A stretch of DNA of 64,000 nucleotides from Actinomycetota bacterium (GTDB lineage: Bacteria; Actinomycetota; UBA4738; HRBIN12): NCBI GenBank assembly GCA_035697485.1, contig DASSCU010000015.1, forward strand, positions 1-64,000, given 5' to 3'. Under the pieces are notes generated by a model, which searched no databases, was not told where the DNA came from, and saw nothing but the letters and a program-made list of their open reading frames with translations. Each line of letters begins with the position of its first letter. Position 1 is the first letter of the stretch. Below are positions 40,364-49,491 of this stretch, in pieces. The position numbers and the translations under genes were made by a program.

Positions 40364-42193
40364 CTACCCCGCGAGGCGCGCGCGCGCCAGGGCAACAGCC
40401 TGGGTGCGGTTCTGCGCCCCGAGCTTGCGCAGGATCGAGCCGACGTGCTTCTCGACGGTCTTCACCGAGATCGTGAGCGCCGCCGCGATCTCGCGGTCCG
40501 TCGAACCCCGCTCCAGGAGCGCGAGCACCTGGCGCTCTCGATCGGTGAGGCCGTGAGCATCGTCGGCGCCGATGAGGTGAGAATGGAGCCGCTCGACCGC
40601 GTCACCGGACAACACCAACTCGCCGCGGGATGCGGCGCGCACCGCCCTGACCAGCTCGACCTCGGACGCTTCCTTGCCGATGTAGCCGCGGGCTCCAGCG
40701 CGGAACGCCCCGGCGACAAGGTCGTCGCTGGCGAACGCGGTCAACGCCACGATGCTCGCCGTCGCATCCTCGGCCCTGATGCGCGCGATCGCGTCGATCC
40801 CGTCACCGTCGAGCATCTGCAGGTCCATGAGCACCACGTCGGGACGCAGCTTCCGCCACTCGAGGATCGCCTGCTCCCCCGATCCGGCCTCGCCGACGAC
40901 GCGCACCGTGGGATCGGATCGCGACAGGAGTCGGGCGATGCCGGCACGCGTCATCGCGTGGTCGTCGACCAGCAGGACTCGCACGGGCTGAGTGGGCCGG
41001 TCCGCATCGTCAGCCATCTCGGACGCCGACGGGATCCAGGCGCGGATCCTGGTGCCCCATCCCGGTGTCGACTCGAGCTCGAGCGTGCCGCCCAGCAACC
41101 GAGCCCGCTCGGCCATCCCGCCGAGACCGAGAGCGTGTGCCTCCCCTTCCTCGACGACCTGTGCCCGATCGAATCCGGCACCGTCGTCTTGCACGAGCAG
41201 ACTGACGCCCGTGGGCGAGTACACGAGCCCGACCCTGACCGAGGTCGCCCGCGCGTGGCGGATCGCGTTGGTCAGCGCCTCCTGGGCGATCCGGAACAAC
41301 GTGTGGGCGACGTCGTGATCGGGCACCCTCGGAGTGCCCGCCGTCACGAGGCGGGCCTCGAGCACACCCGTGCGGTTCGCCCACGCGATCTCGAGCTCGA
41401 GGGCCTCTTCCAGTGAGCGCCCTTCCAAGGGTGACGGCGCGAGCCCGAGCACGCTGCGCCTCGTCTCATCGAAGACCGCCTCCGCGGCCGTTCGCGCCTC
41501 AGCCAGCGCGCCAGTCGCCTCGTCAGGCCGGCCCGCCGCGATCGATCCTTGCGCCCCTCGGATCTGCAACAGGACCGACACGAGCCCCTGCGCGACCGTG
41601 TCGTGCACCTCGCGCGCCATGCGGTTGCGCTCGGCCGCGGCGGCCTCGGCCCGGGCCTCCGATTCCGCCGCCTCGTGCAGGCGGGCGTTCGTGATCGCGA
41701 TCGCGGCGTGCTTGGCGAACAGCTCGAGCAGCTCGGCATCCTCGTGGACGAACACGCGGTCGGGGTCGCGGGTGAACACCACACAGGAGCCGACGATCGA
41801 CCCCCGCCACCAGATCGGGACGCCGATCACGCCCTTCAGCTCTTCGCGGTCCTCCGGGCGAACGTGACCCCCGGGGACGTCGCCGTAGTTTTCGAAGATC
41901 ACCGGACCTCGACGAGCGACGACGGCGCCGGTCGTTCCCTCGGTGAGCGGGAACACCTTGCCCGACTGGCAGGCGATGCCGATGTCCGCTTCCTTGCGGT
42001 AGACGCCCACCGCTTCGTCGACGAGGCAGATCGAGCCGGCGTCGCAACCCAGGAGCTCCGTCGAACGCTTGAGGATCCGTTCGAGCAGCGGACGGAGCGA
42101 CAACTCGCCCGCGAGGTCCTCGACCACGGCGGTGAGCGCCTCGGCCCGCTCCCCTCGGCCCGCCATCTCGACGCGGGTCGAGCCGAGGTTCAT
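40364..42193 (-). CDS. fused sensor histidine kinase and NarL/LuxR response regulator
   Basis: A 609-residue single chain. A GAF domain (about 30-175) is followed by a HisKA_3 dimerisation domain with phospho-His197 (REVHDTVAQGL), a HATPase (NAIRHA at about 309-314, DDGAGFD, GLGGM), a complete receiver (DD at 410-411, Asp457 in VLMDLQM, Lys507 in GYIGKEAS) and a LuxR HTH (about 545-605). In most actinobacteria the kinase and regulator are separate genes. Here one uninterrupted frame joins WIPSASEM to VRVLLVDDH. ATG 42193 has a GGAG site. The GAF domain probably senses a small molecule or redox state. Targets are unknown. Confidence 0.87.
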   Translation of the reverse strand: MNLGSTRVEMAGRGERAEALTAVVEDLAGELSLRPLLERILKRSTELLGCDAGSICLVDEAVGVYRKEADIGIACQSGKVFPLTEGTTGAVVARRGPVIFENYGDVPGGHVRPEDREELKGVIGVPIWWRGSIVGSCVVFTRDPDRVFVHEDAELLELFAKHAAIAITNARLHEAAESEARAEAAAAERNRMAREVHDTVAQGLVSVLLQIRGAQGSIAAGRPDEATGALAEARTAAEAVFDETRRSVLGLAPSPLEGRSLEEALELEIAWANRTGVLEARLVTAGTPRVPDHDVAHTLFRIAQEALTNAIRHARATSVRVGLVYSPTGVSLLVQDDGAGFDRAQVVEEGEAHALGLGGMAERARLLGGTLELESTPGWGTRIRAWIPSASEMADDADRPTQPVRVLLVDDHAMTRAGIARLLSRSDPTVRVVGEAGSGEQAILEWRKLRPDVVLMDLQMLDGDGIDAIARIRAEDATASIVALTAFASDDLVAGAFRAGARGYIGKEASEVELVRAVRAASRGELVLSGDAVERLHSHLIGADDAHGLTDRERQVLALLERGSTDREIAAALTISVKTVEKHVGSILRKLGAQNRTQAVALARARLAG

Positions 42194-42306
42194 CGTCCGA
42201 TCTCCGACCACGCCGACGTCCGTTCGGGGGAGGGATCCTTGCCGGGCAACCCTATGGGCTTTCGGAAGATCGGGCAATCGACCGCTCGGGCGATCGCCAC
42301 ATGGGA

Positions 42307-42336
42307 GAGAGGCCCCCCGGCATCGGGGGGCCTCTC
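42307..42336. terminator. perfect 13-bp hairpin between CHRD gene and fused kinase gene
   Basis: GAGAGGCCCCCCG (42307-42319), loop GCAT, CGGGGGGCCTCTC (42324-42336). It lies about 50 nt after the CHRD stop and upstream of the kinase-regulator gene on the same strand. No T tract follows on either strand. Confidence 0.68.
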
Positions 42337-42384
42337 CACGTTGCAGCACCGTGGCGGGGTGGGTCGACGGCCCGCCGCGGGTCG

Positions 42385-46982: not shown

Positions 46983-47186
46983 GTCCGTCCCTCCTCCCAC
47001 AAGGCCTTCGACGATCAGGCTCACGGCGGGACGGAAGGGTGATCGGTGCCTCGTTCAAGTCTCTCACCAATCGCCGTGGCCACGACGGCGTGCGCTCCTG
47101 AGCGCGCCCGTTTCCGCCCGGGGACGCTGGAATCGCCTACCGCCTTCGGCCTAGGCTTCGGCGGCAAAAGGAAGAGGGAGGCCCGG

Positions 47187-48368
47187 TTGGACCGCACACC
47201 TGCGCGCGCCGTCGTGCCGTTGCTCGCCGCCGCGATGGCGATCTTCGTGTTCACCGTGGTGATCGGCATCCTGAACGGCACCGACGTGGTCGACTTCGGC
47301 CACGGCACGATCCTGGCGCACGTGCACTCCGGCACGCTCGGGTGGATCACGCTCTCGATCTTCGCCGCGACCGTGTGGATCTTCGGCGCCGACCGGCTGC
47401 CTCGGCTGCTGCGCGACGGCTCGATCGCGACCGTGGTCGCGTACGTGCTGGCGTTCTGGGCCGACCTCACCGACCTGCGCCCGGTCGCCGGCACCCTGAT
47501 GCTCGCCGCGATGGTGTGGTTCGCGGTCTGGACGTTCGGCGTTCGCAAAGGGCAGACGCTCACGGTACCGAGGCTGTCGATGCTGCTCTCGCAGGTCAAC
47601 CTCGTGATCGGCGGAGTGCTCGGGGTGATCCTCGGGCTGATGTTGTCGGGCGTGATCGACCTGGCCGAGGGCATGCAGGGAGCTCACCCCGCGATGATGG
47701 TCGTGGGGTACCTGATCCTCGCGGGCGTCGCGATCGACGAGCAGCTGCTCGGTGGGCCCGGCACCGAGGGGCTGACGCGGGGCGGACGCTGGCAGGCGTG
47801 GCTGTTCTTCTCGGCCGGTATCTTCCTCGCGATCGGCATCCTGTTCGAGGTGATGCCGCTCCTCGGACTGAACCTGCTCTTCGAGGTGATCGGCGTGGGC
47901 ATCGTGCTGGCACGGCACCGTTCACGCCTCGCGTCGGTGGGGTGGGGTGTACCGTCGCCGGCGAGGTTCGGCGCCGCCTCGATCCTGTTCCTGGTCCCGA
48001 CCCTCGTGGTCCTGGGGTACGTGATCGTCCGCTACAGCGAGGACATCGACGCGACACCGCAACGGCTGCTGATCGCGCTCGACCATGCGACCTTCATCGG
48101 CATCCTCACGAACGCGATCTTCGGGATGCTGTTCATCGCGGCGGCGTCGCGCCGCGACGTGTGGTCCTGGGCGGACCAAGTCGTGTTCTGGACGATCAAC
48201 CTCGGGGTCACCGGCTTCGTGATCGGTCTGCTCGCCGACTCGGCCGAGATCAAGCACCTCGCCACGCCGGTGACGGGGGCGGGCATCCTGCTCGGCCTGC
48301 TCGTGGTCGCGATGCGGCTTCGCGCCGATACGGTGGCAGCAGCACCGGCGATCGATCCGAGAGGCTGA
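47187..48368 (+). CDS. multi-spanning membrane protein, haem-copper-oxidase/NnrS-like
   Basis: A 393-residue protein with about 11-12 membrane helices. Near the N-terminus FGHGTILAHVHSGTLGWITL puts His39, His45 and His47 around the second helix, as in NnrS and subunit-I-like haem proteins; further His are sparse (AHPAMM, DHATF). TTG 47187 was chosen with GAGGGAGG upstream; the frame continues upstream without membrane character. It could bind haem or copper or be a degenerate oxidase subunit. It is monocistronic. Confidence 0.65.
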   Translation: MDRTPARAVVPLLAAAMAIFVFTVVIGILNGTDVVDFGHGTILAHVHSGTLGWITLSIFAATVWIFGADRLPRLLRDGSIATVVAYVLAFWADLTDLRPVAGTLMLAAMVWFAVWTFGVRKGQTLTVPRLSMLLSQVNLVIGGVLGVILGLMLSGVIDLAEGMQGAHPAMMVVGYLILAGVAIDEQLLGGPGTEGLTRGGRWQAWLFFSAGIFLAIGILFEVMPLLGLNLLFEVIGVGIVLARHRSRLASVGWGVPSPARFGAASILFLVPTLVVLGYVIVRYSEDIDATPQRLLIALDHATFIGILTNAIFGMLFIAAASRRDVWSWADQVVFWTINLGVTGFVIGLLADSAEIKHLATPVTGAGILLGLLVVAMRLRADTVAAAPAIDPRG

Positions 48369-48465
48369 GCAGAACCCAGAACCCGACGGCCGACGTCGGT
48401 CGACGGCGTCATGCTGTCGTCGTGGCGCGACGGGCGCTCGAGCAGCCGAAGGCGGAGCGGAGCGC

Positions 48466-49491
48466 ATGAAGTGGGTCTTCCACGTCGACATGGACGAATT
48501 CATCGCGGCGGTCGAGGTGCTGCGACACCCCGAGCTGCGCGGGAAGCCCGTGATCGTGGGCGGCGACGGCGACCCGACGAAGCGCGGCGTCGTCTCCACG
48601 GCGTCGTACGAGGCGCGGGAATTCGGTGTGCGATCGGCCATGCCGCTGCGCACCGCGTTGAAGCGATGTCCCGACGGCGTGTTCCTAGCGGTCGACGCCG
48701 AGCACTACCTCGAGGCGAGCGGGCGGGTGATGGACACGCTGCGCACGTTCCCGGGCGTGGTGCAGGTGCTCGGCTGGGACGAGGCGTTCATGTCGGTCGA
48801 GACCGACGACCCCGAGGCGATCGCTCGGGAGATCCAGTCGAAGGTGCTCGAGCGTACCGGCCTCTGGTGCTCGATCGGCCTCGGCGACTCGCGGCATCGA
48901 GCGAAGCTCGCCAGCGGATTCGCGAAGCCGCGGGGCGTGTTCCGACTCACCCGCGCGGAGTGGCCGGAGCTGATGGGTCCGAAGCCGGTCGACGCCCTCT
49001 GGGGCATCGGCAGGAAGACCTCCGACAAGCTGAACGAGCTCGGCATCCACACGGTCGACGAGCTCGCGAACGCCGATGACGAGGTCCTCGCGGCGCGCTT
49101 CGGACCGAACACCGGTCCGTGGATCCGCAGCCTCGGCACCGGCGACGACGACGCAGAGGTCACGGCCGAGCCGTACGTGCGACGAGGGCAGAGCCACGAG
49201 CGCACGTTCCAGCGGGACCTGACCGACCCCGGCCTGATCAGGCGGGAGACCGAGCGCATCACCCGAGAGCTCGTCGGCGATCTCCCCGATGACCGGCTCG
49301 TGATGCGCGTGACCGTGAAGCTCCGCACCTCGTCGTTCTTCACCTCGACCCACGGCCGCAAGCTGCCGGAGCCGACCCGAGACCCCGACGCGATCGTCGA
49401 GCACGCCCTCGATGCGCTCGCGAGGTTCGAGCTCGACCGCCCGGTTCGCCTGCTCGGCGTGCGCGCCGAGCTCGCCGACCCGAGCCCGTAG
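48466..49491 (+). CDS. Y-family DNA polymerase, DinB2-like
   Basis: A 341-residue translesion polymerase. Metal motifs HVDMDEF (Asp8, Asp10) and GWDEAFMSVE are present, followed by thumb WGIGRKTSDKLNELGI and a little-finger domain. In E. coli Pol IV the steric-gate residue is Phe13 of DMDCFF; here the site reads DMDEFI, with Ile13. DinB2 of Mycobacterium smegmatis has Leu there and accepts ribonucleotides. It lacks a C-terminal beta-clamp peptide that I can recognise. ATG 48466. Confidence 0.87.
   Translation: MKWVFHVDMDEFIAAVEVLRHPELRGKPVIVGGDGDPTKRGVVSTASYEAREFGVRSAMPLRTALKRCPDGVFLAVDAEHYLEASGRVMDTLRTFPGVVQVLGWDEAFMSVETDDPEAIAREIQSKVLERTGLWCSIGLGDSRHRAKLASGFAKPRGVFRLTRAEWPELMGPKPVDALWGIGRKTSDKLNELGIHTVDELANADDEVLAARFGPNTGPWIRSLGTGDDDAEVTAEPYVRRGQSHERTFQRDLTDPGLIRRETERITRELVGDLPDDRLVMRVTVKLRTSSFFTSTHGRKLPEPTRDPDAIVEHALDALARFELDRPVRLLGVRAELADPSP

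Follow-up and report, generated by a model that had tools for sequence, protein, structure and literature searches.

A DinB2-type Y-family polymerase with an isoleucine steric gate and a threonine at the proposed polar-filter position

The dinB2 gene and its product

The window, i.e., the whole stretch of 64,000 nucleotides analysed here, carries on its forward strand an intact open reading frame, running from an ATG to a TAG codon, whose product is a Y-family DNA polymerase (Table 1); the G+C content at its three codon positions (0.71/0.47/0.92) has the pattern of a real gene. Directly upstream lies an open reading frame for a 440-residue protein (47046–48368, + strand), membrane-like by eye, for which neither Pfam (1e-5) nor NCBIfam (1e-10) gave a match.

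Table 1. Location of the polymerase gene and of its features in the window
Feature	Position	Strand	Basis
dinB2/DinP-clade Y-family DNA polymerase gene, 341 aa	48466..49491	+	ORF, NF002883, tree, fold
DMDEFI motif, residues 8–13, from metal-binding Asp8 to gate Ile13	48487..48504	+	sequence, pairwise alignment
Steric-gate codon ATC (Ile13)	48502..48504	+	alignment
Proposed polar-filter codon ACG (Thr45), opposite Cys47 of M. smegmatis DinB2	48598..48600	+	alignment
Catalytic Asp105-Glu106	48778..48783	+	conserved residues in alignment
Purine-rich, ribosome-binding-like stretch 5' of the ATG	48451..48462	+	by eye, unscored

Pfam profiles recognise in the product the impB/mucB/samB (IMS) domains of Y-family polymerases, and the NCBIfam model NF002883 (DNA polymerase IV, PRK03352) scores it at 512.1 bits against a cut-off of 330. 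The closest solved sequences are the M. smegmatis DinB2/MsDpo4 entries 6jum, 6jun, 4dez and 6juo, and in a tree computed without the gate and filter columns the protein falls inside a 128-row DinB2 clade with SH-aLRT support of 100; the preliminary description of the protein as DinB2-like is therefore upheld and its identification as Pol IV proper is rejected. The AlphaFold model (mean pLDDT 97) has the same fold as MsDpo4, with Z scores of 39.6–39.9 and rmsd values of 1.4–1.7 (341 residues) against 6jun, 6jul, 6juo and 6jum (39.8 for 6jul), so that the structural comparison with DinB2 that had been proposed, here made on a predicted model, agrees with this assignment. An MsDpo4-like fold is, however, not clade-specific by itself, since other Y-family structures, the similarly folded E. 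coli Pol IV among them (4ir1, Z 33.7), score 30–34.

The active-site residues Asp8, Tyr48, Arg51, Asp105, Glu106 and Lys154 are all present in the window protein and are invariant across 54 aligned sequences (the protein itself and 53 relatives). As judged from its sequence, the gene is a DinB2 (DinP) orthologue with intact catalytic residues and a predicted fold. A chance match is excluded by the occurrence of the gene in seven of the 17 genomes of the window's family, its own included, and by the Ile gates of the nearest relatives as well (L004, L005 and L034). That the gene is a decayed or non-expressed copy, as its patchy presence in the family and the degradation of one distant relative (L071) might suggest, is exceedingly improbable in view of the intact reading frame, the conserved catalytic residues, the normal codon pattern and the occurrence in another genome of a relative with 77% identity.

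No match to a simple clamp-binding pattern was found at the C-terminus of the protein (tail ...LADPSP), the pattern being crude enough to miss the sequence QLALPF in L002. M. smegmatis DinB2 likewise has no C-terminal clamp-binding extension, whereas E. coli Pol IV possesses a clamp-binding motif and, at the gate, Phe13 instead of Ile13. The genome of the window encodes two further Y-family polymerases (L001 and L002), both Tyr-gated; a clamp-like motif, QLALL, is detected by the pattern in L001, and the QLALPF in the tail of L002 appears clamp-like by eye.

Residues at the gate and filter positions

Pairwise alignment places DMDEFI of the window protein over DLDQFL of M. smegmatis DinB2, with Ile13 opposite Leu14, so that an isoleucine does occupy the steric-gate position, as first noticed. 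According to the parts of Ordonez et al. 2014 (PMC4176160) used here, the gate is Leu14 in DinB2 and Phe13, five residues past the metal-binding Asp8, in E. coli, and Leu14 controls ribonucleotide use by the M. smegmatis enzyme, as in the preliminary description, where mycobacterial DinB2 combines a Leu gate with ready rNTP insertion. In the same source rNTPs are polymerised by DinB2 whether its gate is Leu or Ala, but not by the L14F form, DinB1 F23L is a gain-of-function variant acting as a vigorous RNA polymerase, and all the non-aromatic forms (DinB2 Leu14 and L14A, DinB1 F23L and F23A) used rNTPs. Since the Leu, Ile and Val gates of Actinobacteria are already listed there, the Ile gate of the window enzyme, although correctly observed, is of a published kind and novelty cannot be claimed for it. 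Indeed, the DinB2-like polymerases of Amycolatopsis, Kribbella, Arthrobacter and others named by Ordonez et al. share gate residue and family with the window enzyme in another lineage; no assay of these Ile-gated enzymes was found in the parts of PMC4176160 used. Among the loci collected here, those from Arthrobacter, Pseudarthrobacter, Paenarthrobacter and Micrococcaceae (L006, L007, L009, L012 and L016–L019) all carry the Ile/Thr pair of the window.

The second residue of this pair is Thr45, which lies opposite Cys47 of M. smegmatis DinB2 (Ser44-Thr45 versus Thr46-Cys47). We take this column to be the polar-filter position reportedly defined by Johnson in 2019, an assignment that fits the engineered variants deposited in the PDB; the position is presumably Thr43 in E. 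coli Pol IV, a threonine as in the window enzyme, and Cys47 in MsDpo4. The PDB sequences form a 2×2 series of MsDpo4 gate/filter combinations, namely L/C (4dez), L/T (6jum), Y/C (6juo) and Y/T (6jun), and the change of Cys47 to Thr is said to have sharply cut rNTP use by MsDpo4. The natural M. smegmatis enzyme (4dez, 6jul), which by similarity belongs to the same clade as the window protein and also has a non-aromatic gate, differs from it at both positions (Leu14 versus Ile13; Cys47 versus Thr45). With Thr at the filter position, the natural I/T pair of the window is, at the level of sequence, closest to the engineered L/T enzyme 6jum, which likewise joins an aliphatic gate to a Thr filter but has Leu at the gate.

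The distribution of the two residues was followed in 16 loci from a genome-collection scan and in the genomes over the cut-off from a phylum sample (39 of 396), from the window's own family (seven of 17) and from a sample of the class (102 of 394), every stretch over the cut-off in the last three being fetched. Counting paralogues and outsiders, there were 150 loci, and gate and filter could be read in 149 of them, the exception being L071, where the region is missing. A quick tree of 147 rows, from which the gate and filter columns were left out, separated 128 DinB2 rows from 19 others, with the reservations that long branches meet at the root join, that the letter composition of four outgroup rows is unusual and that a few genera are densely sampled; the 128 rows correspond to 127 sequences, L013 and L064 being identical. 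Left out before tree building were L003, L039, L042 and L038, which represent the window gene itself or repeat those of L004 and L005, L071, which lacks the N-terminus, the distant paralogue L002, the partial L049 (I/T) and L146 (L/T) and, of a set of 30 Y-family paralogue loci, all except L151, L165, L171 and L172. The NF002883 cut-off is not fully specific, seven of the 39 phylum genomes over it holding F- or Y-gated outsiders; L072–L078 are Phe- or Tyr-gated polymerases of this kind, lying outside the DinB2 clade. L071 itself (G062:C1:3001717-3002568) is a degraded DinB2-like copy with two in-frame stops.

Within the clade the gate is Ile in 65 rows, Leu in 42, Gln in 11 and Val in 10, and is never aromatic (0/128). 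The gate/filter pairs are I/T (65), L/T (26), L/C (16), Q/C (11) and V/T (10). By parsimony the gate has changed at least 21 times and the filter once, from Thr to Cys, in a single clade of 27 rows that holds all 11 Gln gates; Thr is retained in the other 101 rows, i.e., everywhere outside this Cys clade. Phe12, Ala46, Tyr48 and Arg51 are fixed in all 128 rows, and 90 of the 128 genes are, by summed codon counts, one nucleotide away from a Phe codon at the gate. An open gate thus seems to be maintained, for it is never aromatic despite at least 21 changes and the proximity of so many genes to a Phe codon, while the exact residue appears to drift and the filter to be held except in one lineage.

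The 27 Cys-filter rows all come from one family (f28), which is probably mycobacterial, its sequences sharing as much as 87% identity with M. smegmatis DinB2. Since the Cys filter is confined to this one clade, the RNA-proficient founder of the family, M. smegmatis DinB2, is on its residues atypical of the family as sampled. Two other genes from f28 genomes, L063 (I/T) and L126 (L/T), branch away from the Cys clade, a placement that hints at transfer or old duplication.

The Gln gate (DLDQFQ) occurs in L027, L028, L032, L035, L044, L053, L057, L058, L060, L070 and L137, all of the Cys clade. It is absent from the residues listed in the abstract and discussion of Ordonez et al. 2014, the word "glutamine" occurring 0 times in PMC4176160, and a further search of one literature library found no paper on a Gln steric gate in mycobacterial DinB. 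At residue 11 (48496–48498), two positions before the gate, the window has Glu in place of the Gln found in 95% of the clade; Ala stands there in each of the 19 outgroup rows, and the rows with Glu, seven in number, are gated by Ile (three) or Val (four). Outside the clade, the filter position is occupied by Gly in the mycobacterial DinB1-like rows (L151–L169), by Ala in all seven rows examined from a group of Tyr-gated paralogues (L174–L180) that, at a guess, is DinB3-like, and by Ser in four other actinobacterial Y-family rows (L170–L173).

Expected sugar selectivity

From the branched aliphatic gate the preliminary description predicted weak sugar discrimination. The open gate on which this prediction relies is there (Ile13), but the argument was made from the gate alone, and Cys47 of DinB2 is replaced in the window enzyme by Thr45; weak discrimination is possible, and should be milder than in DinB2, for which published dNTP/rNTP selectivities amount to 2.7–3.8-fold (Mn) and 2.6–6-fold (Mg, kpol). 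Indeed, rNTP use by M. smegmatis DinB2 has also been attributed to the absence of a second discriminator, the "polar filter", in the consulted parts of a 2023 eLife paper, and papers citing Johnson 2019, as far as their consulted text goes, support the polar-filter model in general terms only.

The small side chain of Ile13 would leave room for the 2'-OH, while Thr45 might keep the incoming nucleotide near the fingers and so penalise rNTPs, and from the two together one would expect a selectivity between that of Pol IV (Phe/Thr) and that of M. smegmatis DinB2 (Leu/Cys). We incline, with modest confidence, to the view that the window enzyme is a gap-filling DinB2 orthologue of such intermediate selectivity; it would act as an error-prone, probably clamp-independent Y-family polymerase that fills short gaps or ends. 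In the portions of the literature examined no assay was found of a natural enzyme that pairs a Thr filter with an aliphatic gate.

It is also conceivable, if rather unlikely, that the aliphatic gate alone decides, in which case the window enzyme would use rNTPs as DinB2 does and lay down ribonucleotide patches when dNTPs are scarce. The behaviour of the DinB2 and DinB1 gate variants described above speaks for this, as does the lack of any aromatic gate in the clade. Doubts about the polar-filter model point the same way: a NAR study of Pol epsilon from 2023 found, in the sections consulted, few convincing hydrogen bonds in the underlying structures, those of the Y-family included. Rev1, which has both elements, is nevertheless poor at sugar selection (280-fold), a case that counts against the intermediate selectivity preferred here. 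On the other hand, the DinB2 and DinB1 enzymes in question lack a Thr filter: DinB2 has Cys, and Gly was read in 19 of 19 mycobacterial DinB1 orthologues, none of them identified as the M. smegmatis protein. DinB1 F23L probably also lacks a Thr filter, given the Gly of these orthologues, and for the same reason it is probably no bridge to the window enzyme. The rNTP-adept genotype combines an open gate with a residue other than Thr at the filter, and the window enzyme has Thr45. Dpo4 Y12A and gate mutants of Pol IV use rNTPs in spite of the Thr at their filter position, which favours the prediction made from the gate.

At the opposite extreme, the enzyme might be strictly dNTP-selective, with Ile13, Thr45 and other residues closing the pocket and the small gate serving lesion accommodation or slippage. 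Besides the Thr at the filter position, this would accord with the finding (eLife 2023, in the text consulted) that L14F retains the mutagenic effects of DinB2 overexpression in M. smegmatis, from which it follows that an open gate need not concern the sugar. It is nonetheless quite improbable, the non-aromatic forms reported by Ordonez et al. 2014, in the sections used, having all accepted rNTPs.

Returning to the intermediate selectivity preferred here, it may be extended tentatively to the whole clade, which would then comprise two natural selectivity classes: an ancestral and, among the rows sampled, commoner one, including the window enzyme, with an Ile, Leu or Val gate, a fixed Thr and a modest permissiveness for rNTPs, and one lineage, probably mycobacterial, in which Thr became Cys once and in which alone the Gln gate arose. 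If so, the RNA-proficient founder would be the derived exception, and the Gln-gated enzymes would represent a third kind, perhaps even able to touch the 2'-OH. The description of DinB2 as a clade with a natural aptitude for ribonucleotides is based, in the sources as consulted, on mycobacterial enzymes, and if the filter position matters this label should not be extended to the rest of the family. What can usefully be added to it is that, at the second proposed selectivity position, the mycobacterial yardstick is unlike both the window enzyme and the majority of the family as sampled; the natural pairs I/T, V/T, L/T, L/C and Q/C offer ready comparisons by which the effect of the gate can be separated from that of the filter.

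Genome context and possible role

The roles proposed for DinB2 are gap repair or the fill-in of 5' overhangs in NHEJ (Ordonez et al. 2014, PMC4176160, in the parts used), and the repair under dNTP shortage suggested for the window enzyme corresponds to a published "ribo patch" speculation. That the enzyme puts rNTPs to biological use when repairing gaps or filling in NHEJ ends is speculative. Its genome contains two Ku matches, an RNase HII, which is present also in all 14 control genomes, and three LigD-polymerase-like matches, two of them over the cut-off; one LigD-polymerase-like match (C63:52483-53223) and the best Ku match (C63:50740-51282) are separated by about 1.2 kb.

In the phylum sample Ku is found in 31 of 32 DinB2-bearing genomes compared with 157 of 364 others (Fisher p 7.5e-10, lineage and genome size uncontrolled), the 32 including the degraded copy of G062, whose gate region is missing, and the seven F/Y-gated matches being counted as lacking DinB2. 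Within one family the figures are 12 of 12 compared with 61 of 108 (p 0.003), with the gates of nine of the 12 matches unread. In the window's own family, however, Ku accompanies DinB2 in six of seven genomes and is present in all ten without it, so that no association exists there. The co-occurrence in the phylum sample is confounded by lineage, and an NHEJ link through Ku was rejected on these grounds.

An SOS-regulated Pol IV was likewise rejected: no match to the LexA-type site GAACNNNNGTTC, the one consensus tried, was found with up to one mismatch between 45911 and 49106. A tblastn comparison of nine window neighbours and dinB2 with 13 loci found flanking genes shared only by L004 and L042 (same genus) and L005, and Pfam matches revealed no repair gene among them; ten of the 13 loci extend over only about 3–4 kb, so that an absence of shared flanks in them says little. 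Nor was a repair gene found among the 26 of the 58 other open reading frames of the window that were scanned, some of them having no match at all, and an operon or repair-gene context for dinB2 was therefore rejected. Elsewhere in the window, a reading frame on the reverse strand (40364–42349) encodes a single 661-residue protein in which a sensor histidine kinase is fused to a NarL-type response regulator.
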